Assembly: GCF_041021895.1 (NCBI RefSeq)
Contig: NZ_CP157429.1
Coordinates: 1-64,000, forward strand
Reading direction: 5' to 3'
Length of the DNA: 64,000 nt
Source: Acinetobacter sp. XH1741
GTDB lineage: Bacteria; Pseudomonadota; Gammaproteobacteria; Pseudomonadales; Moraxellaceae
In this document: positions 5,568 through 60,861 of the stretch, one piece after another
How the letters are laid out: each line of letters begins with the position of its first letter
How positions within the stretch are numbered: the first letter of the stretch is position 1
Translations under genes and position numbers: made by a program
The notes under the pieces: model-generated
What the model was told of the DNA's origin: nothing
Database searches by the model: none
Seen by the model: only the letters and a program-made list of their open reading frames with translations

Positions 5568-5577
5568 GGCCAATCTC

Positions 5578-9279: not shown

Positions 9280-9284
9280 GAAAA
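9280..9284. repeat. Outer 5-bp direct repeat GAAAA (left)
   Basis: GAAAA directly precedes the left end of the first Tn21-like copy. The same five bases directly follow the right end of the second copy at 26676-26680. Five bp is the target duplication size of the Tn21 group, so the pair marks insertion of the whole 9285-26675 unit. Confidence 0.8.
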
Positions 9285-9317
9285 GGGGTCGTCTCAGGAA
9301 ACGGAAAATATAGCACG

Positions 9318-9926
9318 CTAAGGATTTTCACTCCGACTTCTTTTAACGATATCCAACACGGTATTTTTGCTTAGATTGACCAGCCGACCGACTTGTCGAT
9401 AAGAGTGTCCAGCAGACACCAACTCCAACACTTTAGGTGCCAGACGATCTGACTTGGTACGTTGACCAGGACGACGACCAAACACAACGCCCCGCGCTTG
9501 TGCCGCTGCTACACCAGAGCGCACACGTTCACGTAGTAAATCTCCCTCAAACTCTGCTAATGCAGACATCACAGAAGCCATGAGCTTTCCCTGAGATGTG
9601 GAAAGGTCAAACTGCAAACCTGTTTGTGCCACCAGAGATACCCCGAAATGCCCAAGATCTTGTAATGACTGTACGAGATCCACGGTGCTTCTGCCCCAGC
9701 GTGTCAATTCCGTCACCAAGATGGCATCGATTTCACGAGATTGCGCCATGGTCATCAAGTATTTTCTTTGCAATCTCTCATCCTTACTGCCTGATGCAGT
9801 TTCTTTCCAAACACCGACAACATCGTAGCCGCAACGATTGGCGTAGGCACGTAGGTCATATTCCTGTCGTTCGCAGGACTGATCGTTCGTTGATACTCGG
9901 CAATAAATGGCCGCATTCTGTCCCAA
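9318..9926 (-). CDS. tnpR: Serine resolvase of the Tn21-like transposon, copy 1
   Basis: A 202-residue small serine recombinase. The catalytic serine is in AAIYCRVSTNDQSCERQ and the conserved ELTRWGRSTVDL and SALAEFEGDLLRERV segments follow; the C-terminus has a helix-turn-helix (HSYRQVGRLVNLSKNTVLDI). It resolves cointegrates at the res site beside it. The start is TTG at 9926, chosen because AAGGAGG lies five nt upstream and the conserved N-terminus begins right after it. The sequence is of a different subtype from the classic 186-residue Tn21 resolvase, which suggests a module swap. It is identical to the copy at 26034-26642. Confidence 0.9.
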   Translation of the reverse strand: MGQNAAIYCRVSTNDQSCERQEYDLRAYANRCGYDVVGVWKETASGSKDERLQRKYLMTMAQSREIDAILVTELTRWGRSTVDLVQSLQDLGHFGVSLVAQTGLQFDLSTSQGKLMASVMSALAEFEGDLLRERVRSGVAAAQARGVVFGRRPGQRTKSDRLAPKVLELVSAGHSYRQVGRLVNLSKNTVLDIVKRSRSENP

Positions 9927-9968
9927 TTGAACCTCCTTGCGAAATTGCAGCGCAAAGCTAAGCGTGGC

Positions 9969-9986
9969 GGTACAAAATAATGTACC
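9969..9986. promoter_or_regulatory. Candidate res subsite, copy 1
   Basis: A perfect inverted repeat GGTACA-AAATAA-TGTACC lies in the 94-bp gap between tnpR and tnpA. Tn3-type transposons keep their res site there, and palindromic subsites bind resolvase. The second copy has the same site at 25974-25991. Confidence 0.6.
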
Positions 9987-10020
9987 TTTAATAGTTTAGT
10001 TTATTTGGGACTAATGAGCC

Positions 10021-12987
10021 ATGCCGCGCCATTCTATTTTGTCGTCCACGGAATTGGGAAGCCTGTTCGAAATTCCAGATGATAGAGCTTTTATGCTTCA
10101 GCATTACACTCTGAGTGATTCTGATAAATCCATAGTCCATCAACATCGAGGGGCATCCAACAAGCTAGGCTTTGCAATTCAACTTTGCTACATGCGTTAC
10201 CCTGGAGTGATATTGGGTATTAACGACGAACCATTCAAACCCTTACTTTTCATGATGGCTGCTCAACTTAGTATATCAGTGGACTGCTGGAATGATTATG
10301 GTCAGCGCGAGCAAACAAGACGAGAACATATTGCCGAATTGAAAAAAGTTTTTGGGTTCAAACTATTCACCTTGAGTGACTATCGGCAATCGGTCAATAT
10401 GATGGTGGATTTGTCCCTTCAGACAGATAAAGGTCTTATTTTAGCCACAACTCTCGTTGAAAATTTACGACAAAAATCAGTCCTTTTGCCAGCTATAAAT
10501 GCAATTGATAGTATTTGCGCAGAAGCAATCACATCTGCCAACCGCATAATTTATACTGCTTTGACGAGCTCACTTTCAGAAACTCATCGTCAAAATATAG
10601 ATGCTTTGCTGAACCGTAAAGAGGGCAGCAAACTGACAATATTGGGGTGGCTTAGACAGTCACCAGCTAAACCAAACTCAAAGTACATGCTTGAGCACAT
10701 TGAGCGGCTGAAGTGCTTACAAGCCATCGATCTACCTGAAGACATTGGAAAACACGTTCATCAAAATCGCTTACTGAAAATTGCTCGCGAAGGTGGGCAA
10801 ATGACTCCTGCTGATTTGGCCAGATTTGAATCTCAACGTCGATATGCCACTTTGGTAGCAATCGTTGTGGAGAGTATGGCCACGATCACCGACGAAATTA
10901 TTGACCTGCATGATCGCATTATTGGAAAGCTATTTGCTATCGCAAAAAATAAACACCAGCAACAATTTCAATCATCAGGTAAAGCGATCAACGACAAAGT
11001 GCGTTTGTATGGGCTTATCGGGAAAGCCTTGCTAGATGCCAAGCAAAATGGCAGTGATCCGTTTGCCGCCATCGAAACTGTTATTTCATGGGATGCTTTT
11101 GCAGCAAGTATTACTGAGGCAGAAAAACTGGCGCAACCCGAAGACTTTGATTTTTTACCACGAATTGGCGAGAGCTATGCAACTTTACGCCGTTACGCGC
11201 CAGAACTTCTTGCCATACTTAAATTGCGTGCTGCCCCAGCAGCAAAAGATATGCTTGCCGCTGTAGAGTTGCTCCGCAGCATGAATGTTGATAATACACG
11301 AAAAATCCCCTCTAATGCTCCAATAGCGTTTATCAAAAAACGGTGGGCAAGACTAGTCTTTACCGATGATGGTATTGATCGCCGCTATTACGAAATATGT
11401 GTGTTATCTGAACTTAAAAACTCGCTACGGGCTGGGGATCTCTGGGTACAAGGCTCTCGCCAATTCAAAGACTTCGATGAGTATTTAGTGACTGCTGATA
11501 AATTTAATCAGCTAAAACAGTCCAATGAGTTACCTCTAACCATTACTACTGATTGTGATCTATATTTGCAAAGTCGCCTTTCACTATTGGAGCAGAAATT
11601 AGCAATCATTAATCGCATGGCAGCGACCAACGATTTGCCTGATGCGATGATCAATCAATCTGGTCTAAAAATAACACCTCTCGATGCCGTGGCTCCTGAT
11701 ACAGCCCAAACTTTAATTGACCAAACAGCAATGCTGTTACCACATATCAAGATCACCGAATTATTAATGGAGGTCGATGAATGGACAGGCTTTACTCGAC
11801 ACTTCACTCATTTGAAAACGGATGACACTGCGAAGGATAAAGCGTTATTGCTCACGACCATACTGGCTGATGCAATTAATTTAGGGCTGACGAAAATGGC
11901 CGAATCATGTCCTGGTACAACTTATGCCAAACTCTCATGGCTACAGGCTTGGCATATCCGTGATGAAACTTATTCAACGGCATTGGCCGAATTGGTGAAT
12001 GCTCAATTGAAACAACCTTTCGCTGAAAACTGGGGAGATGGCACTACCTCCTCATCAGATGGCCAACGCTTCCGCGCAGGTGGCAGAGCTGAAAGTACAG
12101 GACATATCAATCCAAAATATGGCGCAGAGCCTGGAAGGTTATTTTATACACACATTTCTGATCAATACGCACCATTTAGCAGTAAGCTGATCAATGTGGG
12201 CGTTCGTGATTCAACCTATGTTCTTGATGGGCTGCTGTATCACGAGTCTGATTTACGCATCGAGGAACACTACACCGATACGGCTGGATTCACCGACCAT
12301 GTTTTTGCACTCATGCACATGCTAGGGTTTCGATTTGCACCACGAATTCGTGATCTGGGCGATACGAAACTCTATATTCCAAAGTCAGACATAGACTATG
12401 CCGCACTTAAACCCATGATTGGCGGCACACTGAATATCAAACAGATTCGTACTCATTGGGACGATATTTTGCGTCTGGCCGCATCAATCAAGCAAGGGAC
12501 TGTCACAGCGTCGCTAATGCTACGTAAACTCGGTAGTTATCCACGACAGAATGGTTTGGCATTGGCATTACGAGAGCTGGGGCGTATTGAGCGCACACTG
12601 TTTATCTTGGATTGGTTGCAAAGCGTAGAACTACGCCGTCGGGTTCAAGCTGGATTAAATAAAGGTGAAGCCCGTAATGCATTAGCGCGCGCCGTTTTCT
12701 TTTATCGATTGGGTGAGATTCGAGATCGAAGCTTTGAGCAACAGCGTTATCGAGCCAGTGGCTTGAATCTAGTGACCGCCGCCATTGTATTGTGGAACAC
12801 GGTTTATTTAGAGAGAGCGACTAACGCCCTACGAGGGCATGGTCGCACAGTCGATGATACCTTGCTGCAATATCTGTCACCGCTGGGGTGGGAGCACATC
12901 AATTTAACTGGGGATTATCTATGGCGAAGCAAAGCCAAGATAGGTGGTGGAAAATTTAGGCCATTGCGCGCAATTGAAAAACCTTAG
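10021..12987 (+). CDS. tnpA: Tn3-superfamily (Tn21 group) transposase, copy 1
   Basis: A 988-residue DDE transposase, exactly the length of Tn21 TnpA. The start [20 protein letters not shown] and the segment [20 protein letters not shown] are characteristic of the group. The C-terminal catalytic half includes [34 protein letters not shown] and the late [17 protein letters not shown] segment. The enzyme carries out replicative transposition and makes a 5-bp target duplication. The frame is intact. It starts with ATG at 10021 and stops within the right terminal repeat region. Confidence 0.95.
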
Positions 12988-13020
12988 CGTGCTATATTTT
13001 CCGTTTCCTGAGACGACCCC

Positions 13021-13161
13021 TACAAGGGCCGTAAGCCGTCACTGACTCCTGAACAAGTGGCTCTGCTGCATCAACGTCTTGAATCTGGCGACTACAAAAC
13101 CAAGCGAGCATTGGCGAAGGAGTTTGGGATTTCTGCGCCAACGCTGTATCGGTATCAGTAG
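13021..13161 (+). pseudogene. C-terminal remnant of a different serine resolvase
   Basis: Directly after the transposon end the frame reads YKGRKPSLTPEQVALLHQRL, then ESGDYKTKRALAKEFGISAP and TLYRYQ before a stop. This is the DNA-binding tail of a Tn3-type resolvase or invertase, unlike the resolvases of the two Tn21-like copies. The catalytic domain is gone, cut off by the transposon. It shows that another transposon lay here earlier. Confidence 0.75.
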
Positions 13162-13252
13162 TAGTTCCAGCTATTTGATATTATTTGTCTATCTATTGAA
13201 AATTTTTCTGAGTAAAACAGGGTCGGCATCCTGAACTGAGCTTGCTCCAATT

Positions 13253-13672
13253 TTATTTGCTGCTAACCGTAAACAGGAATCGACCGATACAAACCAACTT
13301 GCCATCAAGTAGTAACTGAACCGATACTGTCGTAATGCGCCGACCCGCACGAACAATACTGGGGACTGCCTGTAACGTACCTATAAATGCTGGCCGCAGG
13401 TAATCAAAGGTCATCGTGGAGCATAAGGGCAGCTCATTATCACCACGCTGACGGGCAAGATAGGCGGCGGCGGCCACTTCACCAAAACTCGCGAGAATGC
13501 CGCCATGAAACGTGCCAATCATCGGGTTGCCGATATGCGAATCACGAAAGTCCATAAAGTACTGTATTTCTCCATGTTGCATTTCCTCACGAAAACCTAG
13601 AAAATCGACAAAAGGCTCGTCACACAATTTTAGTGGGGGTGTTTCCGCGCTCATCTGATTTACTATACTCAT
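13253..13672 (-). CDS. PaaI-like hotdog thioesterase (second of the pair)
   Basis: A 139-residue hotdog-fold protein of the PaaI/YbgC thioesterase class, which hydrolyse acyl-CoA esters. The family core is visible in GNPMIGTFHGGILASFGEVA (the HGG motif with the helix following it), then STMTFDYLRPAFIGTLQA and VRAGRRITTVSVQL. The ATG at 13672 is one base after the stop of the upstream thioesterase gene, so the two are translationally linked. A longer frame to 13816 overlaps the upstream gene and is unlikely. It is the last gene of the operon 15801-13253. The substrate is unknown; fatty acyl-CoA would fit the alkane context. Confidence 0.8.
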   Translation of the reverse strand: MSIVNQMSAETPPLKLCDEPFVDFLGFREEMQHGEIQYFMDFRDSHIGNPMIGTFHGGILASFGEVAAAAYLARQRGDNELPLCSTMTFDYLRPAFIGTLQAVPSIVRAGRRITTVSVQLLLDGKLVCIGRFLFTVSSK

Positions 13673-13673
13673 A

Positions 13674-14138
13674 TCACTCGCCTCGCGCTTCATTGCTGTC
13701 AAAAGAGGGTCCCATCGTGCCGATTGCGAAAGAACCAGTGACAGTAGCCAGTAGCTCACCACTGTCTTCTGCAACCGCTCGGCCCGTGATAAAGGCCACC
13801 GTATCGGTTCTACCAATGCAATCCACTATCGCCTTTAAACCTACCGCAGAGGGAATACGTCGCAAAAAATCGACACGCAAATCAATAGTGGCAATCGGCT
13901 CTAACGACCGCAATGACGAAAAAATAGATAAGCCGCAAGTCGTATCCAGCAGCGTCACCAAAGCCCCTCGATGCAGTGAGCCTTTACGGTCAGAGAGTTG
14001 CTCAGAGAAGGGCATCGTCATCTCGGCATGACCATCGCTCACTGCACCAACACTAATATTGAACATATTGAATAAAGGGTGATTAGTACCAAAAAACGCC
14101 TTAGCCATGGTCAGGTGTGCCGTGTTATTACTGTCCAT
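13674..14138 (-). CDS. PaaI-like hotdog thioesterase (first of the pair)
   Basis: A 154-residue hotdog protein with the family signature DRKGSLHRGALVTLLDTTCG (HxG followed by the Asp/Thr helix) and TIDLRVDFLRRIPSAVGLKA. It probably hydrolyses an acyl-CoA. The ATG at 14138 has GGGAG nine nt upstream; an in-frame TTG at 14198 overlaps the preceding gene and is less likely. It is 30 percent or so similar in layout to the next gene, and the pair may form a heteromer or act in sequence; that is inference. Confidence 0.8.
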   Translation of the reverse strand: MDSNNTAHLTMAKAFFGTNHPLFNMFNISVGAVSDGHAEMTMPFSEQLSDRKGSLHRGALVTLLDTTCGLSIFSSLRSLEPIATIDLRVDFLRRIPSAVGLKAIVDCIGRTDTVAFITGRAVAEDSGELLATVTGSFAIGTMGPSFDSNEARGE

Positions 14139-14194
14139 TTTTGAACTCCCGCCATTGCTGGCTGATTTTATTGCGAAAAAATTAGCGGCACGTC

Positions 14195-15166
14195 TCAAAG
14201 TGCAAGGGCGGCATCTGTATAATTACGTTCGGCCTGCATCACCGCCACAATGGCCTCTTCAATGGCGGCATATGGAAAGTTTGTGCTTTCCGAGGCAGAC
14301 TTCAAACACATGGCTAATGCCGTCCATGCTTTTTCGCAAGCCCTCATTAACAGGGGCAGTCGATATTGCTGTACACTTGCGTCATAGTGAACCGCTTCAT
14401 CAAGGAATTCAGCGTACATTTTGCGGAAGCCGCCGCCACCTGTGCCACGCTTTTCAATAATTTGGTAGGCAAATCGGGTCGTCCAGTGCCAATCGCCTGT
14501 GGCTCCCCAACGACTCAGTTCGGCCAGCCATGTTTCCAGTGCCGATATGCCACTCACAGCTAATGACTTGGCGTTGTCATGGATGACACCGGTAATCATC
14601 TCGGGGGTAATTTCGCCTTGAAACGCGGTGGGCGTGAACATATTGCCATAGTGAATAAATGGGGGCTGTGTAGAAAAACGTGCGCGGGTCAGTGCCTCTC
14701 GCGTCACCGACAAAACACTCGGACGCTCGGTATCGGTGACAAATACCGCACCTGTCTCTGGATTTCTCGACCAAGCGGCTATGGCGTGACCGGGAAAGTG
14801 CGTGCTGCTGTTGAAGTAAGGTAAATAAAAAATATCCGTCAGCAACAGGGTGGGGTGACCCGCATCCAAACATTTCTCCAGCGCGGTGGCTGCCGATTCG
14901 GGTGACTCGAAGGTTTGCCACTCAAAGGGTATACCGATACTTTCAAATACGCGCGCTTCAAACCCCAAAGACCGCACATGCACTAAAAATGGCACAGGGG
15001 CGTCAGCCATTTCCAAATAGGTCACGCCAAGCCCTGAGCCTAATCCAAAGCACATGGCCTCGGAAATATTCAGCCCATTAAACTCGAGCAAATCACGAAT
15101 TGCGGAGCTGCCACAATGCCTCCCGATGGCGTGCGTGATACGGGATGGAGTCTTATAGTTGGTCAC
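14195..15166 (-). CDS. BtrH N-terminal/DUF4872-type protein
   Basis: A 323-residue protein resembling the BtrH_N plus DUF4872 architecture: IGRHCGSSAIRDLLEFNGL near the N-terminus, then AMCFGLGSGLGVTYL, and a GHAIAAW segment around residue 128. BtrH is an acyltransferase that moves an acyl group from a carrier protein in butirosin synthesis, with Cys and His in these positions; related proteins occur in many operons of unknown product. Here the first Cys (residue 18) and the later His (in FPGHAIAAW) are kept. The start overlaps the stop of the TetR gene by 4 bp (ATGA). The substrate is not predictable. Confidence 0.7.
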   Translation of the reverse strand: MTNYKTPSRITHAIGRHCGSSAIRDLLEFNGLNISEAMCFGLGSGLGVTYLEMADAPVPFLVHVRSLGFEARVFESIGIPFEWQTFESPESAATALEKCLDAGHPTLLLTDIFYLPYFNSSTHFPGHAIAAWSRNPETGAVFVTDTERPSVLSVTREALTRARFSTQPPFIHYGNMFTPTAFQGEITPEMITGVIHDNAKSLAVSGISALETWLAELSRWGATGDWHWTTRFAYQIIEKRGTGGGGFRKMYAEFLDEAVHYDASVQQYRLPLLMRACEKAWTALAMCLKSASESTNFPYAAIEEAIVAVMQAERNYTDAALAL

Positions 15167-15801
15167 AGGTTTTTTGCCTCTTCGTGAAAATCTGGATTAA
15201 GGATGCCTCTTGTCATCATCTGCCATATCGCATCCGCGATCTGTTCAAGATTGTACTTACCATTTTCTTTATACCAAGTGGCAGCCCAGTTTATTGCTCC
15301 TAGCCCAATCAGTCTTAACAGATCTGCATCCACATCGTTTCGGATACAACCATAAGACTGCAGATCATCAAGAATTGTCTGCCAATATCGCTCGTATCTG
15401 TCTCTCTCAGCAATAATCTGCTCACGTGCGACTCCATGTACCGAGCGCCACTCAAACAACAACACATAAACCATATCGTCACCCGACATAAGGATATCGA
15501 CATGTGTCTGCAGTGCCGATTGCATTTTTTTGAGTGGATCTTGAATCGCGGAAGTCGCCTCAACAATCCTGTAAATAGTTCTCTCAATAGCAAGCCGCAT
15601 CATATCAACCAAAATATCGTCTTTACTACGATAGCGGTAATGCAGACTGCCTGGAAGAATACCACAAGCACTGGCAATTTCTCGCACACTGGTACGCTCA
15701 AAACCCTTTTCTCGAAACAGCTTGGCAGAAGCGGCTAATACTCTCTCGCGGTCAGCAACTTCGACTCGCGTAGATTCACTACTCAACATAGTTTGACTCA
15801 T
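15163..15801 (-). CDS. TetR-family transcriptional regulator
   Basis: A 212-residue repressor-type protein. The DNA-binding domain covers residues 15-65 (ERVLAASAKLFREKGFERTS, VREIASACGILPGSLHYRYR, SKDDILVDMM); the ligand domain follows and resembles that of KstR2-like lipid regulators. It is the first gene of an operon with the BtrH-like and thioesterase genes (4-bp overlap downstream). A perfect palindrome 25 bp upstream (15826-15847) is the likely operator, so it probably represses its own operon. An acyl-CoA or fatty acid ligand is plausible but not shown. Confidence 0.88.
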   Translation of the reverse strand: MSQTMLSSESTRVEVADRERVLAASAKLFREKGFERTSVREIASACGILPGSLHYRYRSKDDILVDMMRLAIERTIYRIVEATSAIQDPLKKMQSALQTHVDILMSGDDMVYVLLFEWRSVHGVAREQIIAERDRYERYWQTILDDLQSYGCIRNDVDADLLRLIGLGAINWAATWYKENGKYNLEQIADAIWQMMTRGILNPDFHEEAKNL

Positions 15802-15825
15802 AACATTATATCAATAAGACAGGTT

Positions 15826-15847
15826 ACTCGACTTGGTCAAGTCGAGT
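15826..15847. promoter_or_regulatory. Palindromic operator upstream of the TetR operon
   Basis: ACTCGACTTG-GT-CAAGTCGAGT is a perfect 10-bp inverted repeat with a 2-nt centre, placed 25 bp before the TetR start. It is followed by a further partial half-site (CGAGTC). TetR regulators commonly bind such sites to repress themselves. Confidence 0.7.
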
Positions 15848-15872
15848 CGAGTCTTTCACGGTCTCTCCTGAT

Positions 15873-16742
15873 CTATACAGCTTTTGCAATGGGGACATTA
15901 AAAACAATTCGTGACGCTTCCATAGGGTCTTGATGCTTATCATATTCAGCCAGCCAAGAATTAACCTTTTCTGGGATTTCGGTGTCGCTAGGATGGAAAC
16001 CTGGCTTAAACCAGTCCAGATAGCGTGGAATAAGTCTGGTAATCAGGCCACGTGGTCCATAGAGGCGATAAAATCCCTTAGCAAGCACCAATGGCTGACC
16101 TTGTAGTTTGTCAATTTTCAACATATGCCAAAGAACTGAGCCAACCACCGCATGTACCAGTAGCGTTCCGATAATCAAAGCAGATGCGCGGGTGAAATAC
16201 CCCCCACCTGCCGCTGTTTCGTAAACATCAAAGGCTACTGTTTTGTGTTCGACTTCTTCTACCCCATGCCACATGAACATGGCACGCATTGCGGGATGAG
16301 CATTCTTGAACATCTCACCCTCACCCTCCATAGCACCCTCGCCTAGTACAGCAGTAATATGTTCAAAGGCAGCTGTCATGGCCAACAGATACTTGGCGGG
16401 CAGGTGTTTTTGGGAGAGCCGAATAAATAATTTGAATCTTGCGATGACCTTTTCGACATGAATGCCTTGCGACTGCATCACCGCATTATACTGGTCATGC
16501 ACAATGCCATGTTGCGCTTCTTGGCGAAAAAAGTTTTTGATATCTTCTCTCAGTTTAGGATCTGTGACCAGATCCTGATAGTTACGCACCGACTGAATAA
16601 AAAAACGCTCTCCATCGGGGAAGTGAATAGAAAGTGCATCAAAGAAGCGTGTTAACACCGGGTCACCGTCGTTCCAAAAAACTGGAACATCACTTAAATC
16701 AAACCGCGGCTTACGTGGCTGGATATTGATCATATGAGTCAT
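15873..16742 (-). CDS. PF10118-type metal-dependent hydrolase
   Basis: A 289-residue protein of the family annotated as predicted metal-dependent hydrolase (PF10118). The helical core has a ferritin-like set of metal-ligand candidates: FFRQEAQHGIVHDQYN, AAFEHITAVLGEG and HGVEEVEHKTVAFDVY. A hydrophobic segment lies at about residues 175-195. Members often sit beside alkane or fatty acid genes, but the reaction is not established. The ATG at 16742 has AAGGAA upstream. Two palindromes 120-170 bp upstream probably control it, separately from the neighbouring TetR operon. Confidence 0.72.
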   Translation of the reverse strand: MTHMINIQPRKPRFDLSDVPVFWNDGDPVLTRFFDALSIHFPDGERFFIQSVRNYQDLVTDPKLREDIKNFFRQEAQHGIVHDQYNAVMQSQGIHVEKVIARFKLFIRLSQKHLPAKYLLAMTAAFEHITAVLGEGAMEGEGEMFKNAHPAMRAMFMWHGVEEVEHKTVAFDVYETAAGGGYFTRASALIIGTLLVHAVVGSVLWHMLKIDKLQGQPLVLAKGFYRLYGPRGLITRLIPRYLDWFKPGFHPSDTEIPEKVNSWLAEYDKHQDPMEASRIVFNVPIAKAV

Positions 16743-16861
16743 GGCGAGAGTTTCCTTGTAAAGGCATCGAATGTCTGTAAACCTGCTATCACATTTGACC
16801 TTGAGCAATATTTTTCACCTTGGTCAGGCACAGCAAATATCACACAAGAATTCAACGGGTA

Positions 16862-16913
16862 TTGGTCAAATGACCAAATGCATATTTTGAATATATATTG
16901 GTCGATTGACCAA
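16862..16913. promoter_or_regulatory. Twin TTGGTCA palindromes upstream of the PF10118 gene
   Basis: Two inverted repeats, TTGGTCAAATGACCAA (16862-16877) and TTGGTCGATTGACCAA (16898-16913), lie 36 bp centre to centre. The shared sequence and symmetry point to a dimeric repressor, probably of the TetR type. The palindrome differs from the one before the local TetR gene, so the cognate regulator is probably elsewhere. Confidence 0.6.
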
Positions 16914-17128
16914 ATGTCAAGCCTGTCCTCAAAATTTGATAGAATGAGTTAACAACGCAGCAGGTGAGCCAGATCATCTTTGACATCGAATATAGCTACC
17001 AGACCTTTTGGCAGAGGTGTTTTTTTAATGTTAGTTTTTTTACATTAGAGTGTGTTGACGTTTGAAAATATTGATTGCAAATTGGAGGCAGACTCAGAGA
17101 ATTAAAGCTCTCCCCATCCGAGTCCACC

Positions 17129-17629: not shown

Positions 17630-17667
17630 ATCAGCGTAATGCAAATCTAGCCTGATGTAGTTTTAAG

Positions 17668-18882
17668 CTACCCCATCAACGCCTGTACCGCAATCGACTC
17701 ATCCGCCAACCGCAGTGGATCGACCGCCGTACCAGCCGTGATCAGCTTTTTGCTTAGCATAAACTCCTGCGGACGATTCACACAATCCGCCGCAATCAGG
17801 CGACCCGCCTGCAAATAAAACGCTGCAAAGCTACGCCTTTGCTGCACATCACCCCGAATCACGATCTGATCATACCCCTGACTGAGTCCCGCAATCTGCA
17901 ACTTTAGATCATACTGATCTGACCAAAACCAAGGCAAACTCTTCGAGGTCCGCTGTAAGCCACACAAGGTCGCCGAGGCAATTTTGGCCTGTTCATTGGC
18001 GTTTGGTACCGACTCCAAGCGCATCCGCCGCTGATAAATCGGATTAAACGCATTGGCACAATCCCCGATGGCCACAATCTCTGGCGCACTGGTACGGCAA
18101 TACTCATCAATCACAATACCATTGTCCACCTGCAAGCCCGCGTCCAGCGCCAACTCGATATTCGGTACAACCCCGACCCCGATGATCACCAGATCTGCAT
18201 CGAACATCGAACCATCGGCACACAGCACCGCTTGCGCCCGCCCCTCACCCGTGATCGCCGTGACCGACACACCGGTATGAATCGTCACACCCTGTTCGCG
18301 ATGAATCCGCGTATAAAAGTCCGACACTTCCGGTGCAGTTACCCGCTGCAAAATCCGCTCGGCGGCTTCCAAGACCACCACCTGCATGCCCTGCTCGGTC
18401 AATGCGGCGGCTGTTTCAAGACCGATATAGCCACCACCGATCACCACTGCTTTGCCGTTGGGTTGTACAAATGGCTGGATAGCCTGTACATCGCTGATAT
18501 TTCTAAGATAATGCACACCTGCCAAATCAGACCCAGCCAGCGACACCGTCCTGACTCGTGCACCGGTACACAGCGCCAACTGGTCATACGCAAGCGTACT
18601 GCCATCTTGTAGTGTCACGCTGCGCGCTGCCCGATCAATCGCAACCACCCGCCCGTGCCGAAATTCGATCTGATTTTTTTGATAAAAAGCGGCTGGCCGA
18701 ATCAATAACTCATCGACCAGTTGTGCACCGCATAAAAAGGTCTTGGACAACGGCGGTCGATGATACGGCAAATACGGCTCATCGCCGATCACCACAATCT
18801 CGCCCTGCCAGCCATCTGGCCGCAGACTTGCCGCCAACTGCGCCGCAGCATGACTTGCGCCAATGATGACGATTGTTTGCAT
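17668..18882 (-). CDS. FAD-dependent ferredoxin reductase of the CYP153 system
   Basis: A 404-residue reductase of the putidaredoxin/rhodocoxin reductase family. It takes electrons from NADH through FAD to the 2Fe-2S ferredoxin encoded two genes upstream. The FAD site starts at IIGASHAAAQLAASLR, the NADH-binding motif is VVIGGGYIGLETAAAL (about 146-161), and the second FAD motif is EIVAIGDCANAF (about 268-279). It is the last gene of the operon, 86 bp after the P450 stop. Cytosolic. The start at ATG 18882 is preceded by GAGTGAATTCAT. The role follows from family and neighbours. Confidence 0.9.
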   Translation of the reverse strand: MQTIVIIGASHAAAQLAASLRPDGWQGEIVVIGDEPYLPYHRPPLSKTFLCGAQLVDELLIRPAAFYQKNQIEFRHGRVVAIDRAARSVTLQDGSTLAYDQLALCTGARVRTVSLAGSDLAGVHYLRNISDVQAIQPFVQPNGKAVVIGGGYIGLETAAALTEQGMQVVVLEAAERILQRVTAPEVSDFYTRIHREQGVTIHTGVSVTAITGEGRAQAVLCADGSMFDADLVIIGVGVVPNIELALDAGLQVDNGIVIDEYCRTSAPEIVAIGDCANAFNPIYQRRMRLESVPNANEQAKIASATLCGLQRTSKSLPWFWSDQYDLKLQIAGLSQGYDQIVIRGDVQQRRSFAAFYLQAGRLIAADCVNRPQEFMLSKKLITAGTAVDPLRLADESIAVQALMG

Positions 18883-18968
18883 ATGAATTCACTCAGTTCA
18901 TGGTTGATGCACAGCATCAATTGTTGCCGACGACAGTTGCAAAATGCCTCTGTCGCCTATTTTGATAC

Positions 18969-20360
18969 CTACGCTTTGGCAGTCAGTTTGACCATCATCT
19001 TGGCATAGCCGCGCACAAAGTTAGACTGCACCAACTCTGGCTCACCCAATACCTCAATATTGTCGAAGCGAAGCAATAACTCCTCCCACAGAATCCGCAA
19101 CTGCATCTCGGCCAAGCGATTGCCCATACAGCGATGCACACCAAAGCCAAATGACAAATGATTGCGTGCACCTTTACGATCAATCAAAAACGCATCTGGC
19201 TGTTCAATCACCCGCTCGTCACGATTGCCCGAGGCATACCACATTAAGATCTTGTCGCCCTTACGGATGGTTTGGCCGTGCATCTCGATGTCTTGCTTGG
19301 CGATGCGACGCATATACGCCAGTGGGGTCTGCCAGCGAATGATCTCGGACACCATATTTGGAATCAGGCTCGGTTGGTTTTTCAGTTTGACAAACTGCTC
19401 AGGAAACAGGTTCAGCGCATATACCCCGCCGGTCATGGAGTTCCGCGTGGTGTCATTCCCACCGACAATCAGCAAGGCCAAATTGCCCAAAAACTCCATC
19501 GGACGGTGAATCAAATCCTTGGTATCGTCATTGCTCAGCATTAAGCTAATCAAATCAAATCCCATCGGCTCACCTGCCGCTTGCTGAGCCGCCTTGGCAT
19601 GCCACAGCGCGGCAAACTGCTTGGCCATATCAGCGGCGGCATTAAAAAGCACATCGTTGTCGCTAATCTCACCGCCCGTGGCTTCTGCGCTGCCCGCCAA
19701 CGTATCAGACCAGTACACCAGCTTGTGCCGCTGTTCATACGGAAAATCTAACAAGGTCGCCAGCATGCGTGCGGTGATTTCTTTGGACACCCGCTCCACC
19801 CAATCAAACGGCGTATCGAGCGGCAAATCATCCAAAATCTCTTGTACCCGACTGCGGATCAGCCCTTCCATTTCTTTTAAATTTTTCGGTGCGACCACAC
19901 CTTGTACCGCTTGACGCTGCACATCGTGCTTAGGCGGATCCATTGCAATAAACATTTCCACATCCAGTCCGGCGGGCGGCTTGCCAATCACAATCACCGG
20001 TTCCGCCGAAAACAGCTCGTGGGATTTGTCCACGAACACAATATCGTCATAACGGGTAATCGACCAAAATGCACCGAATGGACTGCTTTTTTGGTAATGA
20101 ACAGGACGCTCGTCGCGTAGCCGCTTAAAGTATGACTGCCATTGATGCTGTCGATATAAAAACGGATTGCTCATATCGATGTCTTCGAGCTTGAGCGTGG
20201 CAACATCGGGGATTGGCTTTTCTACAAAATCAGGGAACGGTTGCGCCTGTGTCACCCGTTGCTTGACCTTTTGGAACACCTGCATGCCTTTCACTTGTAA
20301 ATGCATGGGTATCGGCAGCAGGGCTGAAATTTGGTTTAGTGTGGCTTGCATGTTTTTCAT
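18969..20360 (-). CDS. Cytochrome P450, CYP153 type alkane terminal hydroxylase
   Basis: A 463-residue soluble P450. The heme ligand is the Cys at about residue 411 in FGFGVHRCMGNRLAE, the I-helix oxygen-activating motif is VGGNDTTRNSM and the K-helix pair is EIIRWQTP. The overall sequence resembles CYP153, which hydroxylates medium-chain n-alkanes at the terminal carbon in Acinetobacter, Alcanivorax and others. The ferredoxin and reductase genes on either side provide the electron supply. Its start (ATG 20360) has GAGGAATG upstream. Assignment to CYP153 is from overall recognition and the neighbourhood; chain-length preference cannot be judged. Confidence 0.92.
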   Translation of the reverse strand: MKNMQATLNQISALLPIPMHLQVKGMQVFQKVKQRVTQAQPFPDFVEKPIPDVATLKLEDIDMSNPFLYRQHQWQSYFKRLRDERPVHYQKSSPFGAFWSITRYDDIVFVDKSHELFSAEPVIVIGKPPAGLDVEMFIAMDPPKHDVQRQAVQGVVAPKNLKEMEGLIRSRVQEILDDLPLDTPFDWVERVSKEITARMLATLLDFPYEQRHKLVYWSDTLAGSAEATGGEISDNDVLFNAAADMAKQFAALWHAKAAQQAAGEPMGFDLISLMLSNDDTKDLIHRPMEFLGNLALLIVGGNDTTRNSMTGGVYALNLFPEQFVKLKNQPSLIPNMVSEIIRWQTPLAYMRRIAKQDIEMHGQTIRKGDKILMWYASGNRDERVIEQPDAFLIDRKGARNHLSFGFGVHRCMGNRLAEMQLRILWEELLLRFDNIEVLGEPELVQSNFVRGYAKMMVKLTAKA

Positions 20361-20409
20361 GATTCATTCCTCAATGATGATGCTTAACAGCTGTTGAAAT
20401 CTGCCGTCA

Positions 20410-20730
20410 CTACATTTGAAACTCAGGCAAATGCACCACCATGCCATCCATTGCATCGGACAATTGAATCTGGCACGCCAAACGAGACGACGCCGTACCT
20501 TCTGGTACCATCTCTAGCATGCGCGCCTCTTCGTCATTGGGCTGTCCTGTCGCCGCCAGCCAAGCACCGTCAACGATCACATGACAGGTTCCACAAGCAC
20601 ATTCGCCACCGCAATCTCCATCAATGCCGGATACGCCGTGATCGATAGCCAGTTGCATCAGCGACTTGCCCGCTTCGATGTCAAGTACGGTGGCGGTACC
20701 GTCATACTCGATCAATGTAATTTGACCCAT
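20410..20730 (-). CDS. 2Fe-2S ferredoxin of the CYP153 system
   Basis: A 106-residue adrenodoxin/putidaredoxin-type ferredoxin. The cluster ligands are C40, C46 and C49 (DGDCGGECACGTC) plus C86 (SRLACQ). It carries electrons from the reductase to the P450. The ATG at 20730 is chosen because AGGAG lies about 10 nt upstream and the conserved ITLIEYDGTA start follows. A longer open frame to 20955 has no homology. It is the first gene of the three-gene operon and is divergent from the AraC-type regulator. Confidence 0.92.
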   Translation of the reverse strand: MGQITLIEYDGTATVLDIEAGKSLMQLAIDHGVSGIDGDCGGECACGTCHVIVDGAWLAATGQPNDEEARMLEMVPEGTASSRLACQIQLSDAMDGMVVHLPEFQM

Positions 20731-20946
20731 TATTACTACTCCTGTGTGGTATACGGTTGCTGGTGACGCCGATGAAAATAGCCATCCCTCTTTACTCATA
20801 ATAGACATGTATCCATACTGCTTACAGGTCTCTTGTTGACAATATAGGGTCATTAAAAGACGATTATGGCGCTGTAGCCCCATCGTCGATTGCATTTTTC
20901 TAGTCGATGTTCTTTCATACTGGTCTGTTATTGAGGTGTTTGAGCC

Positions 20947-22026
20947 ATGTTGCATCCAAGTCTGCTGACTGGTCTCGCCAGTACAAGTGAATCTGCTAAT
21001 ATCCCCTGTAGCTATACCCGTCTGATTGGCCGAGAGCTGGACTTGCAGGCGCGTGACCTACCTAAACTATTAAAATTCACCACGCTGACCGCTGAACAAC
21101 TGATGCGTGACGACACGATGATCACGGCCAGCCAACAGATTCAAATCTTACAAAATAGCTTGGAGTTGTCCGCATCCGATCAGTTTGGCTTGCGTTTAGG
21201 GCAGCGGCTCACGCCGTCAACACATGGCTCGATGGGCTTTTTAATCAATAGCAGCCCGAACTTATTGGCCGTGTTACAAGCGTTTCAAACTTTTTTGCCG
21301 ACCCGTATGAGTTTGATTAGGCTCGAAACACACACCAATGCTGAGTGGACGACCTGCTTGATTTTCTTTGAGCAGACCTTGAGTCATGCAGTACATCGGC
21401 TACTGTCCGAAACTGTTGCGGTGATTTTTTCGGAATGTGCCGAATTTATTGTTGGACGACCGCTGACCGAGGCGGTGATTCAGTTTAGCCATCCCGCCCC
21501 CGATCATCATGCCTGTTACGCGGATTATCTTGCCGGTACCTATCAGTTTGATCAGCCACAACTGTCGATCCGAGTGCCGACCGAGTTGTGCTTGATTGCC
21601 AATGCATCCGCGCAGCACGATAGCTATCTGCTGGCGATGCAACAATGCGAAATGATCCTCAACCGGCTCAAGACCCAACAACACAGCACCACCTACCAAG
21701 TGCAAAAAGCCATGCTGTCCTATCCGCTCGGGCAACTGAGTGAAGAGGATCTGGCTGCAGCCTTGTTTATGAATAAGCGTACGCTGGCCAGACGTCTGGT
21801 CAAAGAGAACACGAGTTACCGGCTGATTCGAGATCGGATTTTATCTGAGAAAGCCAGTAGTTATTTACATGACCCTCAAATATCGGTCGAGGCAATTGCC
21901 AGCTTACTGAATTACCACGACTCTGCTAATTTTCGGCGCGCGTTTAAACGCTGGTTTGGTGTATCACCAAGTGCTTATCGGCGAAAAATCACCCATCGGC
22001 AAGAAGAAAATGACCTGAGAGAATGA
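20947..22026 (+). CDS. AraC-family regulator of the CYP153 operon
   Basis: A 359-residue regulator with an N-terminal arabinose-binding-like domain (about residues 25-210, including GLRLGQRLTPSTHGSMGF) and a C-terminal AraC helix-turn-helix (about 255-350: MNKRTLARRLVKENTSYRLI, SVEAIASLLNYHDSANFRRA, FKRWFGVSPSAYRR). It is divergent from the ferredoxin-P450-reductase operon with a 216-bp gap, the usual arrangement for an alkane-responsive activator. The inducer is inferred, not seen. The start at ATG 20947 lacks a strong ribosome site. Confidence 0.88.
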   Translation: MLHPSLLTGLASTSESANIPCSYTRLIGRELDLQARDLPKLLKFTTLTAEQLMRDDTMITASQQIQILQNSLELSASDQFGLRLGQRLTPSTHGSMGFLINSSPNLLAVLQAFQTFLPTRMSLIRLETHTNAEWTTCLIFFEQTLSHAVHRLLSETVAVIFSECAEFIVGRPLTEAVIQFSHPAPDHHACYADYLAGTYQFDQPQLSIRVPTELCLIANASAQHDSYLLAMQQCEMILNRLKTQQHSTTYQVQKAMLSYPLGQLSEEDLAAALFMNKRTLARRLVKENTSYRLIRDRILSEKASSYLHDPQISVEAIASLLNYHDSANFRRAFKRWFGVSPSAYRRKITHRQEENDLRE

Positions 22027-22233
22027 GGTTGTTCGTATGATTGTTAATACGTTGAAACATCAATACGCCCTAGAAAAATACCTTAAAACGCTATGTCAGA
22101 GATGGCAATCATATGGCAGCCCTCCACTTCCAATCCGATAACCTCAACTCAACCCAACGCTTGCAACCCGCTGTGAACTCTGTAGAGGTTTTAATTCCCA
22201 TTGCAGCCCATCCACCGTCAATGTCTTCAGTTA

Positions 22234-22607
22234 GGGGTCGTCTCAGGAAACGGAAAATATAGCACGCTAAGGATTTTCACTCCGACTTCTTTTAACGATA
22301 TCCAACACGGTATTTTTGCTTAGATTGACCAGCCGACCGACTTGTCGATAAGAGTGTCCAGCAGACACCAACTCCAACACTTTAGGTGCCAGACGATCTG
22401 ACTTGGTACGTTGACCAGGACGACGACCAAACACAACGCCACGCGCTTGTGCCGCTGCTACACCAGAGCGCACACGTTCACGTAGTAAATCTCCCTCAAA
22501 CTCTGCTAATGCAGACATCACAGAAGCCATGAGCTTTCCCTGAGATGTGGAAAGGTCAAACTGCAAACCTGTTTGTGCCACCAGAGATACCCCGAAATGC
22601 CCAAGAT
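22234..22607 (-). mobile_element. Third, partial Tn21-like copy (resolvase end only)
   Basis: The terminal repeat GGGGTCGTCTCAGGAAAC starts at 22234 and is followed by the last 110 or so codons of the same resolvase (22267 to about 22606), identical to the other copies except for one silent change near 22441. The copy is cut at 22607 by the end of an IS21-family element. It has the same orientation as copy 1. Confidence 0.9.
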
Positions 22608-22939
22608 TGTTGACGCTCACTTAATATTGACCAGCGATGCTCGTTGAATATTGACCAGGCATTTAAGCAATGTAGCGTACTACACTGCTGTGGATAAATC
22701 GATCAATTGCTGTTGCTTTTTCTTCACTGATCGACGGTTAAAATAACTCTCCTTTCTCTGCTTCTCGTTTCTTTATACGCTGCTTGGCTTCCTCCGTGCT
22801 TTGCTTAAAACGATAGGATTCATTACCCGTTTCGATGATATGGCAATGATGAGTCAGTCGATCCAGCAGTGCAGTCGTCAACTTAGCATCACCAAATACA
22901 TTGCTCCATTCCGAGAAGCTCAAGTTCGTCGTAATGATA
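22608..22939 (-). mobile_element. IS21-family remnant with IstB C-terminus
   Basis: The end TGTTGACGCTCACTTAATAT at 22608, with internal repeats of ATATTGACCAG, is typical of IS21 elements. The minus-strand frame 22738-22939 encodes the IstB (ATPase helper) C-terminus: [40 protein letters not shown] and [10 protein letters not shown]. The rest of istB and all of istA are lost where Tn21-like copy 2 begins at 22940. Confidence 0.85.
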
Positions 22940-22972
22940 GGGGTCGTCTCAGGAAACGGAAAATATAGCACG

Positions 22973-25939
22973 CTAAGGTTTTTCAATTGCGCGCAATGGC
23001 CTAAATTTTCCACCACCTATCTTGGCTTTGCTTCGCCATAGATAATCCCCAGTTAAATTGATGTGCTCCCACCCCAGCGGTGACAGATATTGCAGCAAGG
23101 TATCATCGACTGTGCGACCATGCCCTCGTAGGGCGTTAGTCGCTCTCTCTAAATAAACCGTGTTCCACAATACAATGGCGGCGGTCACTAGATTCAAGCC
23201 ACTGGCTCGATAACGCTGTTGCTCAAAGCTTCGATCTCGAATCTCACCCAATCGATAAAAGAAAACGGCGCGCGCTAATGCATTACGGGCTTCACCTTTA
23301 TTTAATCCAGCTTGAACCCGACGGCGTAGTTCTACGCTTTGCAACCAATCCAAGATAAACAGTGTGCGCTCAATACGCCCCAGCTCTCGTAATGCCAATG
23401 CCAAACCATTCTGTCGTGGATAACTACCGAGTTTACGTAGCATTAGCGACGCTGTGACAGTCCCTTGCTTGATTGATGCGGCCAGACGCAAAATATCGTC
23501 CCAATGAGTACGAATCTGTTTGATATTCAGTGTGCCGCCAATCATGGGTTTAAGTGCGGCATAGTCTATGTCTGACTTTGGAATATAGAGTTTCGTATCG
23601 CCCAGATCACGAATTCGTGGTGCAAATCGAAACCCTAGCATGTGCATGAGTGCAAAAACATGGTCGGTGAATCCAGCCGTATCGGTGTAGTGTTCCTCGA
23701 TGCGTAAATCAGACTCGTGATACAGCAGCCCATCAAGAACATAGGTTGAATCACGAACGCCCACATTGATCAGCTTACTGCTAAATGGTGCGTATTGATC
23801 AGAAATGTGTGTATAAAATAACCTTCCAGGCTCTGCGCCATATTTTGGATTGATATGTCCTGTACTTTCAGCTCTGCCACCTGCGCGGAAGCGTTGGCCA
23901 TCTGATGAGGAGGTAGTGCCATCTCCCCAGTTTTCAGCGAAAGGTTGTTTCAATTGAGCATTCACCAATTCGGCCAATGCCGTTGAATAAGTTTCATCAC
24001 GGATATGCCAAGCCTGTAGCCATGAGAGTTTGGCATAAGTTGTACCAGGACATGATTCGGCCATTTTCGTCAGCCCTAAATTAATTGCATCAGCCAGTAT
24101 GGTCGTGAGCAATAACGCTTTATCCTTCGCAGTGTCATCCGTTTTCAAATGAGTGAAGTGTCGAGTAAAGCCTGTCCATTCATCGACCTCCATTAATAAT
24201 TCGGTGATCTTGATATGTGGTAACAGCATTGCTGTTTGGTCAATTAAAGTTTGGGCTGTATCAGGAGCCACGGCATCGAGAGGTGTTATTTTTAGACCAG
24301 ATTGATTGATCATCGCATCAGGCAAATCGTTGGTCGCTGCCATGCGATTAATGATTGCTAATTTCTGCTCCAATAGTGAAAGGCGACTTTGCAAATATAG
24401 ATCACAATCAGTAGTAATGGTTAGAGGTAACTCATTGGACTGTTTTAGCTGATTAAATTTATCAGCAGTCACTAAATACTCATCGAAGTCTTTGAATTGG
24501 CGAGAGCCTTGTACCCAGAGATCCCCAGCCCGTAGCGAGTTTTTAAGTTCAGATAACACACATATTTCGTAATAGCGGCGATCAATACCATCATCGGTAA
24601 AGACTAGTCTTGCCCACCGTTTTTTGATAAACGCTATTGGAGCATTAGAGGGGATTTTTCGTGTATTATCAACATTCATGCTGCGGAGCAACTCTACAGC
24701 GGCAAGCATATCTTTTGCTGCTGGGGCAGCACGCAATTTAAGTATGGCAAGAAGTTCTGGCGCGTAACGGCGTAAAGTTGCATAGCTCTCGCCAATTCGT
24801 GGTAAAAAATCAAAGTCTTCGGGTTGCGCCAGTTTTTCTGCCTCAGTAATACTTGCTGCAAAAGCATCCCATGAAATAACAGTTTCGATGGCGGCAAACG
24901 GATCACTGCCATTTTGCTTGGCATCTAGCAAGGCTTTCCCGATAAGCCCATACAAACGCACTTTGTCGTTGATCGCTTTACCTGATGATTGAAATTGTTG
25001 CTGGTGTTTATTTTTTGCGATAGCAAATAGCTTTCCAATAATGCGATCATGCAGGTCAATAATTTCGTCGGTGATCGTGGCCATACTCTCCACAACGATT
25101 GCTACCAAAGTGGCATATCGACGTTGAGATTCAAATCTGGCCAAATCAGCAGGAGTCATTTGCCCACCTTCGCGAGCAATTTTCAGTAAGCGATTTTGAT
25201 GAACGTGTTTTCCAATGTCTTCAGGTAGATCGATGGCTTGTAAGCACTTCAGCCGCTCAATGTGCTCAAGCATGTACTTTGAGTTTGGTTTAGCTGGTGA
25301 CTGTCTAAGCCACCCCAATATTGTCAGTTTGCTGCCCTCTTTACGGTTCAGCAAAGCATCTATATTTTGACGATGAGTTTCTGAAAGTGAGCTCGTCAAA
25401 GCAGTATAAATTATGCGGTTGGCAGATGTGATTGCTTCTGCGCAAATACTATCAATTGCATTTATAGCTGGCAAAAGGACTGATTTTTGTCGTAAATTTT
25501 CAACGAGAGTTGTGGCTAAAATAAGACCTTTATCTGTCTGAAGGGACAAATCCACCATCATATTGACCGATTGCCGATAGTCACTCAAGGTGAATAGTTT
25601 GAACCCAAAAACTTTTTTCAATTCGGCAATATGTTCTCGTCTTGTTTGCTCGCGCTGACCATAATCATTCCAGCAGTCCACTGATATACTAAGTTGAGCA
25701 GCCATCATGAAAAGTAAGGGTTTGAATGGTTCGTCGTTAATACCCAATATCACTCCAGGGTAACGCATGTAGCAAAGTTGAATTGCAAAGCCTAGCTTGT
25801 TGGATGCCCCTCGATGTTGATGGACTATGGATTTATCAGAATCACTCAGAGTGTAATGCTGAAGCATAAAAGCTCTATCATCTGGAATTTCGAACAGGCT
25901 TCCCAATTCCGTGGACGACAAAATAGAATGGCGCGGCAT
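22973..25939 (-). CDS. tnpA: Tn3-superfamily (Tn21 group) transposase, copy 2
   Basis: The 988-residue protein is identical in sequence to the transposase at 10021-12987 and the frame is intact. Two identical transposases in opposite orientation mean either copy, or the whole composite, could be mobilised by the same enzyme. Identity of the copies suggests the composite formed recently or is kept uniform by gene conversion. Confidence 0.95.
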
Positions 25940-25973
25940 GGCTCATTAGTCCCAAATAAACTAAACTATTAAA

Positions 25974-25991
25974 GGTACATTATTTTGTACC
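25974..25991. promoter_or_regulatory. Candidate res subsite, copy 2
   Basis: The same GGTACA-AAATAA-TGTACC palindrome as at 9969-9986, here in mirror position between tnpA and tnpR. With the two res regions in inverted orientation, recombination between them would invert the cargo instead of deleting it. Confidence 0.6.
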
Positions 25992-26033
25992 GCCACGCTT
26001 AGCTTTGCGCTGCAATTTCGCAAGGAGGTTCAA

Positions 26034-26642
26034 TTGGGACAGAATGCGGCCATTTATTGCCGAGTATCAACGAACGATCAGTCCTGCGAACGACAGGAAT
26101 ATGACCTACGTGCCTACGCCAATCGTTGCGGCTACGATGTTGTCGGTGTTTGGAAAGAAACTGCATCAGGCAGTAAGGATGAGAGATTGCAAAGAAAATA
26201 CTTGATGACCATGGCGCAATCTCGTGAAATCGATGCCATCTTGGTGACGGAATTGACACGCTGGGGCAGAAGCACCGTGGATCTCGTACAGTCATTACAA
26301 GATCTTGGGCATTTCGGGGTATCTCTGGTGGCACAAACAGGTTTGCAGTTTGACCTTTCCACATCTCAGGGAAAGCTCATGGCTTCTGTGATGTCTGCAT
26401 TAGCAGAGTTTGAGGGAGATTTACTACGTGAACGTGTGCGCTCTGGTGTAGCAGCGGCACAAGCGCGGGGCGTTGTGTTTGGTCGTCGTCCTGGTCAACG
26501 TACCAAGTCAGATCGTCTGGCACCTAAAGTGTTGGAGTTGGTGTCTGCTGGACACTCTTATCGACAAGTCGGTCGGCTGGTCAATCTAAGCAAAAATACC
26601 GTGTTGGATATCGTTAAAAGAAGTCGGAGTGAAAATCCTTAG
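26034..26642 (+). CDS. tnpR: Serine resolvase of the Tn21-like transposon, copy 2
   Basis: Identical in sequence to the 202-residue resolvase at 9318-9926, with the same TTG start and AAGGAGG ribosome site. The stop codon lies inside the terminal repeat region. A third, truncated copy of the gene is present at 22267-22606. Confidence 0.92.
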   Translation: MGQNAAIYCRVSTNDQSCERQEYDLRAYANRCGYDVVGVWKETASGSKDERLQRKYLMTMAQSREIDAILVTELTRWGRSTVDLVQSLQDLGHFGVSLVAQTGLQFDLSTSQGKLMASVMSALAEFEGDLLRERVRSGVAAAQARGVVFGRRPGQRTKSDRLAPKVLELVSAGHSYRQVGRLVNLSKNTVLDIVKRSRSENP

Positions 26643-26675
26643 CGTGCTATATTTTCCGTTTCCTGAGACGACCCC

Positions 26676-26680
26676 GAAAA
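26676..26680. repeat. Outer 5-bp direct repeat GAAAA (right)
   Basis: The partner of the GAAAA at 9280-9284. It lies directly outside the right end of the composite transposon and belongs to the interrupted coding sequence. Confidence 0.8.
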
Positions 26681-59953: not shown

Positions 59954-59964
59954 GGTACGCCTAT

Positions 59965-60819: not shown

Positions 60820-60861
60820 CATATCCCAAGTGAAAGTCTCCTGCTAATTCAGCACATATCA

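Follow-up and report, generated by a model that had tools for sequence, protein, structure and literature searches.

Composite transposons built on IS1071, such as Tn5271, carry catabolic cargo between Tn3-family ends, and IS1071 is not known to encode a resolvase, unlike the ends of the Acinetobacter unit described here, each of which has its own tnpR. Tn5271 and other IS1071 composites are named in the available text of PMC4133298, which also describes TIME-COMP elements; these composites resemble our unit in being bounded by two Tn3-family ends with 5-bp duplications, but their ends are 262-bp elements without a transposase. TnPpa1 of Paracoccus pantotrophus is a composite of two Tn3434 copies and, according to the available parts of PMC3281130, shares with our unit the pairing of two identical cryptic transposons of the Tn3 family, both complete with tnpA and tnpR and in divergent orientation, as well as movement of the whole with 5-bp duplications and metabolic genes aboard. 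TnPpa1 differs in size (44 kb), in genus and in constituent element, and its transposition was seen experimentally, whereas the Acinetobacter unit is known from natural insertions at several sites and includes an IS21 fragment as well as the end of a third element copy. A preliminary description of the locus had called a composite of full Tn3-superfamily units unusual; such composites are indeed rare but, given TnPpa1, not without precedent, and the Acinetobacter unit is a new case of a rare, already known composite type.

Related arrangements have been reported in Acinetobacter. Plasmid pAME76 of Acinetobacter calcoaceticus E1 has a benzoate region flanked by ISAcsp1, with two 2,967-bp transposases (the length of tnpA here) that are 100% alike and in opposite orientation around catabolic genes, although the available text of PMC9676059 reports it as a benzoate region without a transposon label. 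NZ_CP045128, the plasmid to which pAME76 is likened, had no match to the element, the cargo or an ISAcsp1-flanked benzoate region in two 50-kb stretches that cover all but 3.6 kb of it. The CYP153A module of pCl107 (CP098522) has the same cargo as our unit, with one ISAcsp1 described, but is presented in the available text of PMC10117892 without a composite-transposon description. We found no publication describing the unit as a composite transposon among those judged from titles and the starts of abstracts, a coverage in which most subscription literature falls outside.

The window we analyzed is a 64,000-nucleotide stretch of the Acinetobacter sp. XH1741 contig NZ_CP157429.1. A 17,391-bp unit (17.4 kb; positions 9285-26675) lies within a DUF262/HNH gene of the window, with GAAAA on both sides in direct orientation (Table 1). 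The preliminary description had reported two identical 3,736-bp copies facing opposite ways, matching outer flanks and unlike inner flanks. A base-by-base comparison bears this out: the copies are 100% identical and inverted, each consists of 39-bp ends with divergent tnpR and tnpA, and on their inner sides the 5-bp flanks read TACAA (13021-13025) and TGATA (22935-22939). The two bases beside each IRR are TA in both copies, which is a chance agreement; the chance of a random 5-bp match, estimated from local composition, is ~0.001. The same account recognized the two copies but overlooked what lies inside the unit, namely a third, truncated left end (IRL'; 374 bp with one SNP, flanked by AGTTA) and, after it, a fragment of an IS21-family istB that adjoins copy 2. 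Two copies of a transposable element thus bound the cargo, and we confirm that the two inverted, complete Tn3-family copies around the CYP153 alkane-hydroxylase cluster constitute a composite transposon.

Table 1. Features of the composite unit and its immediate flanks (window positions)
Feature	Position	Strand	Remarks
Left target-site duplication GAAAA	9280..9284		Single copy at empty site L029
Copy 1, complete Tn3-family transposon	9285..13020	+	IRL at 9285, IRR ends 13020; 100% identical to copy 2
tnpR, serine resolvase, 202 aa (copy 1)	9318..9926	-	PF00239 E 9e-37; gamma-delta resolvase relative
tnpA, Tn3-family DDE transposase, 988 aa (copy 1)	10021..12987	+	PF01526 E 4e-159; NF033527; DDE aligned to Tn4430 TnpA
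Cargo segment	13021..22233		Inner flanks TACAA (left), AGTTA (right)
Remnant (3' part; 46 aa, HTH_7) of another resolvase gene, split by copy 1	13021..13158	+	
PaaI-like thioesterase ORF	13253..13816	-	PF03061
BtrH-like / DUF4872 protein	14195..15166	-	PF14399, PF16169
TetR-family regulator	15163..15801	-	PF00440, PF17932
Predicted metal-dependent hydrolase	15873..16808	-	PF10118
FAD-dependent ferredoxin reductase	17668..18882	-	PF07992, PF14759
Cytochrome P450, CYP153	18969..20360	-	PF00067; WP_004658516
2Fe-2S ferredoxin ORF	20410..20955	-	PF00111
AraC-family regulator CypR	20947..22026	+	NF053784 E 2e-152
IRL', 374-bp left end of third copy, flank AGTTA	22234..22607	+	
IS21-family element fragment truncated by copy 2 (istB 3' end)	22608..22939	-	PF01695 in ORF 22738-23016; flank TGATA 22935-22939
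Copy 2, complete Tn3-family transposon	22940..26675	-	IRR at 22940, IRL ends 26675
tnpA of copy 2	22973..25939	-	Identical to copy 1
tnpR of copy 2	26034..26642	+	Identical to copy 1
Right target-site duplication GAAAA	26676..26680		

The catalytic residues of TnpA line up with the DDE residues of Tn4430 TnpA, as in a Tn3-type DDE domain, and the catalytic serine of TnpR aligns with that of gamma-delta resolvase, as in a serine resolvase. The 39-bp terminal repeats (GGGGTCGTCTCAGG...) are present at both sides, with IRL and IRR 97.8% alike over 46 bp, and agree with the ~38-bp terminal inverted repeats starting GGGG that characterize the Tn3 family. The 94-bp gap between tnpR and tnpA gave a weak folding signal (z -2.0), and no res subsites were identified in it. 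As for the initial label "Tn21-like", the terminal repeat resembles the IR of Tn21, and to that extent the label fits. However, tnpR and tnpA have the same direction in the Tn21 subgroup and are divergent here. Tn3-family element is a better name for the copies, which NCBI annotation lists as "ISAcsp1 family".

The presence of a CYP153 cluster between the two copies was upheld. Assignment of the P450 to CYP153 is supported because CypR scores 507 bits with NF053784, for which the cut-off is 500, and the same P450 protein, WP_004658516, is typed as CYP153A in the available text of PMC10117892. The cargo is also present in 45 of the 47 PLSDB records with this tnpA, such that the element is hardly seen alone in PLSDB; a whole single element without cargo was not found in the collections searched, except for one deletion derivative of the unit.

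We conclude from sequence comparison that window 9285-26675 is very probably one transposable unit that moved via its outermost ends (probability about 0.95). The one-event move suggested in the preliminary description is supported both by an empty site and by other sites with their own duplications. The uninterrupted DUF262/HNH gene that had been proposed as a check is present in NZ_CP040913, without cargo and with a single GAAAA; the left flank extends to position 4000 and the right flank starts at 3996, giving a 5-bp overlap. Matching duplications flank the unit elsewhere: AATTT in CP119225, TAAGT in AP024709, TTCAT in CP125671 and CTTAT in genome G006. The AATTT site is empty in NZ_CP012956, with a 5-bp overlap, and CP119225 itself has an uninterrupted TTCAT site, again with a 5-bp overlap and with flanks 87-93% identical. 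An empty CTTAT site was not found in 119 genomes of the genus, where the best match outside G006 was 70% over 366 bases. Alternatively, the two copies could have inserted independently beside a resident CYP153 cluster, with the GAAAA match being coincidental, and the unlike inner flanks TACAA and TGATA are what independent first insertions would leave. That scenario, however, predicts a duplication for each copy, so that TACAA or TGATA would recur at its outer end, and neither copy has one. The continuity of the DUF262/HNH gene in NZ_CP040913 without the cargo and the exact outer matches at four further sites refute this explanation, which we consider extremely unlikely.

Seven distinct sites are ungapped and retain both ends; at five of them the outer 5-bp sequences match exactly, in agreement with the 5-bp target duplication of the Tn3 family. 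In CP038025, the ends are CTTTA (left) and TTTAT (right), which share four bases, a partial match explicable by the loss of one C from a C-run. The ends in CP139049, TGATA versus TATTT, are a real mismatch. Genome G203 has ATAAA and AATAA in a stretch that holds Ns, and was left unscored. Most of copy 2 is missing next to an IS1008-like gene in seven plasmid loci (L030, L031, L032, L045, L046, L048 and L049), L043/L047 have lost part of one copy, and both copies are cut in genome G194; the outer duplications of these loci are therefore not comparable. We tallied the inner flanks in 33 unit loci from other records, some of which represent the same plasmid twice and some of which are fragments. 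TACAA was kept in 30/30, AGTTA in 30/30 and TGATA in 23/23 of the loci retaining the respective junction; the 17.4-kb unit occurs at other sites, as sought, with constant inner flanks.

Five sequences, namely the window, AP021937, CP139259, AP022303 and CP118893, share the same site and flanks, and for these it suffices to assume a single insertion, after which the plasmid spread or recombined. Over 17,391 bp, AP021937 and CP139259 have no differences from the window, CP118893 has one and AP022303 has two. Spread of the unit by homologous recombination between plasmids with a common backbone, without transposition, nonetheless fails to account for units that are bounded exactly by the IRs, lie in unrelated sequences and have different 5-bp duplications. 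Homologous recombination may operate within one insertion site, but as an explanation for the unit as a whole we regard it as most improbable.

The IRL of copy 1 and IRL' form 374-bp direct repeats. CP118893 has a flipped form of the unit, and CP139288, a related plasmid, has a deletion form in which exactly the 4.4-kb segment from IRL' (22234) to 26675 lies between GAAAA and GAAAA; both forms are attributable to recombination between the repeats of the unit. The form in CP139288 would also be expected had a smaller 4.4-kb unit inserted at GAAAA and acquired the cargo later. However, IRL x IRL' recombination in the full unit, with loss of 12,949 bp, yields the same product, and the occurrence of the full unit at other sites, its inner junctions unchanged, shows that it existed as a unit, which makes later addition of the cargo very unlikely. 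Two candidate ancestors were rejected: genome G205, as an ancestor without the element at AGTTA, retains no more than the first 13 IR bases there and is a truncated derivative, and AP019743, in which IS21 might have been intact as in an ancestor, lacks the two outer ends.

For transposition of the entire unit, TnpA, which both end copies encode, would act on IRL 9285 and IRL 26675, with the three internal ends ignored. The 17,391-bp unit was inserted into a DUF262/HNH gene on a plasmid, and GAAAA was duplicated; by analogy with the family, this would be replicative transposition via a cointegrate, with TnpR resolution at a putative res between tnpR and tnpA. In the history we propose, a first copy would have inserted into AGTTA, an IS21-family element cut the tnpR of this copy, istB received a second copy at TGATA, and another copy entered an unrelated resolvase gene at TACAA, after which the outermost ends would have captured all between. 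Later RecA-type recombination among the repeats would flip, shorten or homogenize the unit.

Because of transposition immunity, a Tn3-family element is expected to be excluded from a replicon that already carries a copy, and the composite, which packs five Tn3-family ends into 17 kb, therefore offers a natural setting in which to test how immunity is escaped. We tentatively suggest, as a possibility short of even odds, that the element is effectively composite-only (in the collections searched, not found whole without cargo, bar the one deletion derivative), that it has three insertion points within ~10 kb despite expected immunity, and that the unit diversifies by exchanging its catalytic cassette (CYP153, ferredoxin and the beginning of CypR) for a diverged version, the rest being nearly identical. 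The unit shows how genes for alkane oxidation move among Acinetobacter plasmids of environmental and clinical origin, and its constant inner flanks provide a simple marker for tracing it. In genome G194, where it lies on a 3.67-Mb contig, the unit is probably in a chromosome.

Self-comparison of the window bore out the two identical, oppositely oriented 3,736-bp transposons of the preliminary description (copy 1 and copy 2; limits set by trimming to the GGGG ends). Each has intact frames for a 988-aa Tn3-family transposase (PF01526, NF033527) and, divergently, a 202-aa serine resolvase (PF00239). By sequence, Tn4430 TnpA accounts for both solved relatives of the transposase (E about 1e-224), and the DDE residues of the two proteins align. 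The term 'Tn21-like' holds for the inverted repeats, which are similar to those of Tn21, but not for gene order, since divergent tnpR and tnpA is not the Tn21 order. NCBI names the element 'Tn3-like element ISAcsp1 family'. A 46-aa remnant (PF02796) marks another resolvase gene, interrupted by copy 1 at its 3' end. Folding of the tnpR–tnpA gap revealed no defined res site.

Positions of features in the window
Feature	Position	Strand	Length	Detail
Inverted repeat	1758-2716; 59906-60863		about 960 bp	77% identity
BREX remnant	4570-5594
Whole unit	9285-26675		17,391 bp
Copy 1	9285-13020	+	3,736 bp
CYP153 cargo	13021-22233			G+C 48.8%
Second diverged block	15229-16092			of CP139049, by window position; TetR/hydrolase region
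Diverged block	19026-21117			of 11 other cargo copies, by window position; some lineages reach 21279 or 21420
Third left end, IRL'	22234-22607		374 bp	one SNP; own flank AGTTA
IS21-family fragment, istB end			332 bp	after IRL'; interrupted by copy 2
Copy 2	22940-26675	-	3,736 bp
Tandem duplication	60517-61206		345 bp	perfect

The cargo carries the genes of a CYP153 system, namely P450, ferredoxin, ferredoxin reductase and the AraC-type regulator CypR; in PMC10117892 this very P450 is classed as CYP153A. It also encodes a TetR regulator, a thioesterase, a BtrH-like protein and a metal-dependent hydrolase. G+C is 45.2% in the copies and 39.0% in the window outside the unit. IRL' and the IS21-family fragment are additions to the preliminary description. 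The junctions of copy 1, IRL' and copy 2 therefore mark three insertion points of one element within about 10 kb (13021 to 22939). The inner flanks are constant wherever the junction is retained (TACAA in 30/30, AGTTA in 30/30 and TGATA in 23/23 of 33 unit loci from other records, a tally that counts fragments and one repeated plasmid).

By contrast, the outer flanks vary. Among unit loci fetched and delimited by IR scan and alignment to unit segments, seven distinct sites are ungapped and keep both outer ends; five of them have exact outer duplications, the chance per site being 0.001-0.004.

Outer flanks at ungapped sites with both ends
Left/right	Records	Detail
GAAAA/GAAAA	window, AP021937, CP139259, AP022303, CP118893	deletion form in CP139288
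AATTT/AATTT	CP119225	genome G078 has the right end too
TAAGT/TAAGT	AP024709
TTCAT/TTCAT	CP125671	copy 2 with internal deletion
CTTAT/CTTAT	genome G006
CTTTA/TTTAT	CP038025	inexact
TGATA/TATTT	CP139049	mismatch

The uninterrupted DUF262/HNH gene proposed as a check was found in the A. pittii plasmid NZ_CP040913, where the two flanks, both 100% identical, overlap by 5 bp at GAAAA (the left one, 400 bp, runs to 4000 and the right one starts at 3996); the intact gene scores slightly below the cut-offs of the GmrSD_N and HNH profiles. The AATTT and TTCAT sites are vacant in CP012956 and CP119225, respectively, each with a 5-bp overlap. For the TAAGT site, CP068205 matches just 9 bp of the left flank, and IS1006 is annotated right beside the unit in AP024709. 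The vacant CP038025 site in CP139049 reads ATTACTTTATGG and the overlap is four bases, indicating either a four-base duplication or loss of one C from the right-end C-run. The CP139049 unit is a true exception, possibly caused by a later deletion beside it. The stretch from genome G203 (ATAAA/AATAA) contains Ns and was left unscored. Constant inner flanks with varied outer flanks and fresh duplications are the signature of whole-unit transposition, and we conclude that, as first proposed, the 17.4-kb unit moved as one, both of the proposed checks having come out positive. From family knowledge, movement would be replicative, through a cointegrate resolved by TnpR; the order in which the unit was assembled would likewise follow from what is known of the family. 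In two other plasmids (L031, L046), the unit also lies in the DUF262/HNH gene, at TTATA, some 223 bp away from where it is inserted in the window; this repeat insertion may reflect chance, target preference or selection.

Flipped and shortened forms of the unit (REARRANGEMENTS) occur in CP118893, CP139288, L043 and L047. CP118893 has the interior flipped at the window's site, which would fit recombination between the inverted copies, and CP139288 retains 4.4 kb at the window's GAAAA site, a form that could arise if the 374-bp direct repeats, copy 1 IRL and IRL', recombined. From L043 and L047, 706 bp is missing between IRL' and copy 2 IRR, which brings AGTTA up against IRR, consistent with recombination between these two ends. 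The IRL' SNP is common to the end copies in some loci. Seven plasmid loci (L030-L032, L045, L046, L048, L049) have lost the right end of the unit, copy 2 being broken after 171 to 352 bp; an IS1008-like gene, at least 97.6% identical to that of L048, follows about 50-65 bp further. At the TACAA edge of the cargo in L036 (genome G074; 3171-3834), an internally deleted element of about 245 bp of left end and 432 bp of right end resembles a miniature derivative.

Composites of complete Tn3-family transposons are a rare yet known kind, so the unit is an added example. TnPpa1 of Paracoccus is also in the list in the excerpted part of PMC4133298, which describes TIME-COMP and Tn5271 too, and an excerpt of PMC9676059 places the benzoate region of pAME76 between two oppositely oriented ISAcsp1 copies. 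Our literature search recognised no paper describing the 17,391-bp unit as a transposon. Its points of interest are three insertions despite the immunity expected of the family, an element that is almost never found alone, and a swapped catalytic block.

In PLSDB, tnpA occurs at 99% identity or more in 47 records, all Acinetobacter, and at 60-80% in 13 others. The first 3.8 kb of the cargo occurs in 45 records, all 45 with tnpA when the lists were compared by eye; the tnpA records lacking cargo are CP139288 (the deletion form) and CP139283 (a 909-bp tnpA fragment). These records are not independent, because many are near-identical (e.g. nine 218,105-bp plasmids). Seven of 119 genus genomes (G000, G006, G049, G055, G064, G078, G079) contain a long portion of the element, from about 3.4 kb upward, and every one of them also has the cargo. 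A junction-pattern search of GTDB contigs returned 13 stretches, from eleven named Acinetobacter and two MAGs. One contig with the copy 1-cargo junction, in a record titled Planctomycetaceae MAG (L126), is probably a misbinned Acinetobacter contig.

Half of the other cargo copies aligned to that of the window (11/22) carry a sharp-edged diverged block covering most of CYP153, the ferredoxin and the start of CypR, with 79% aa identity in the P450. It starts at 19026 in all 11 and has three different end points; outside it, copies show 0 to 9 differences, save CP139049 (L088), which has the second block (189 differences). This pattern suggests that recombination within the transposon replaced one allele by another.

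Elsewhere in the window, the BREX remnant, in which a BrxA-like frame directly adjoins the C-terminal 168 residues of a BrxL-like protein, looks like an operon that has lost its middle. Self-comparison also detected the tandem duplication and, near both window ends, the inverted repeat.
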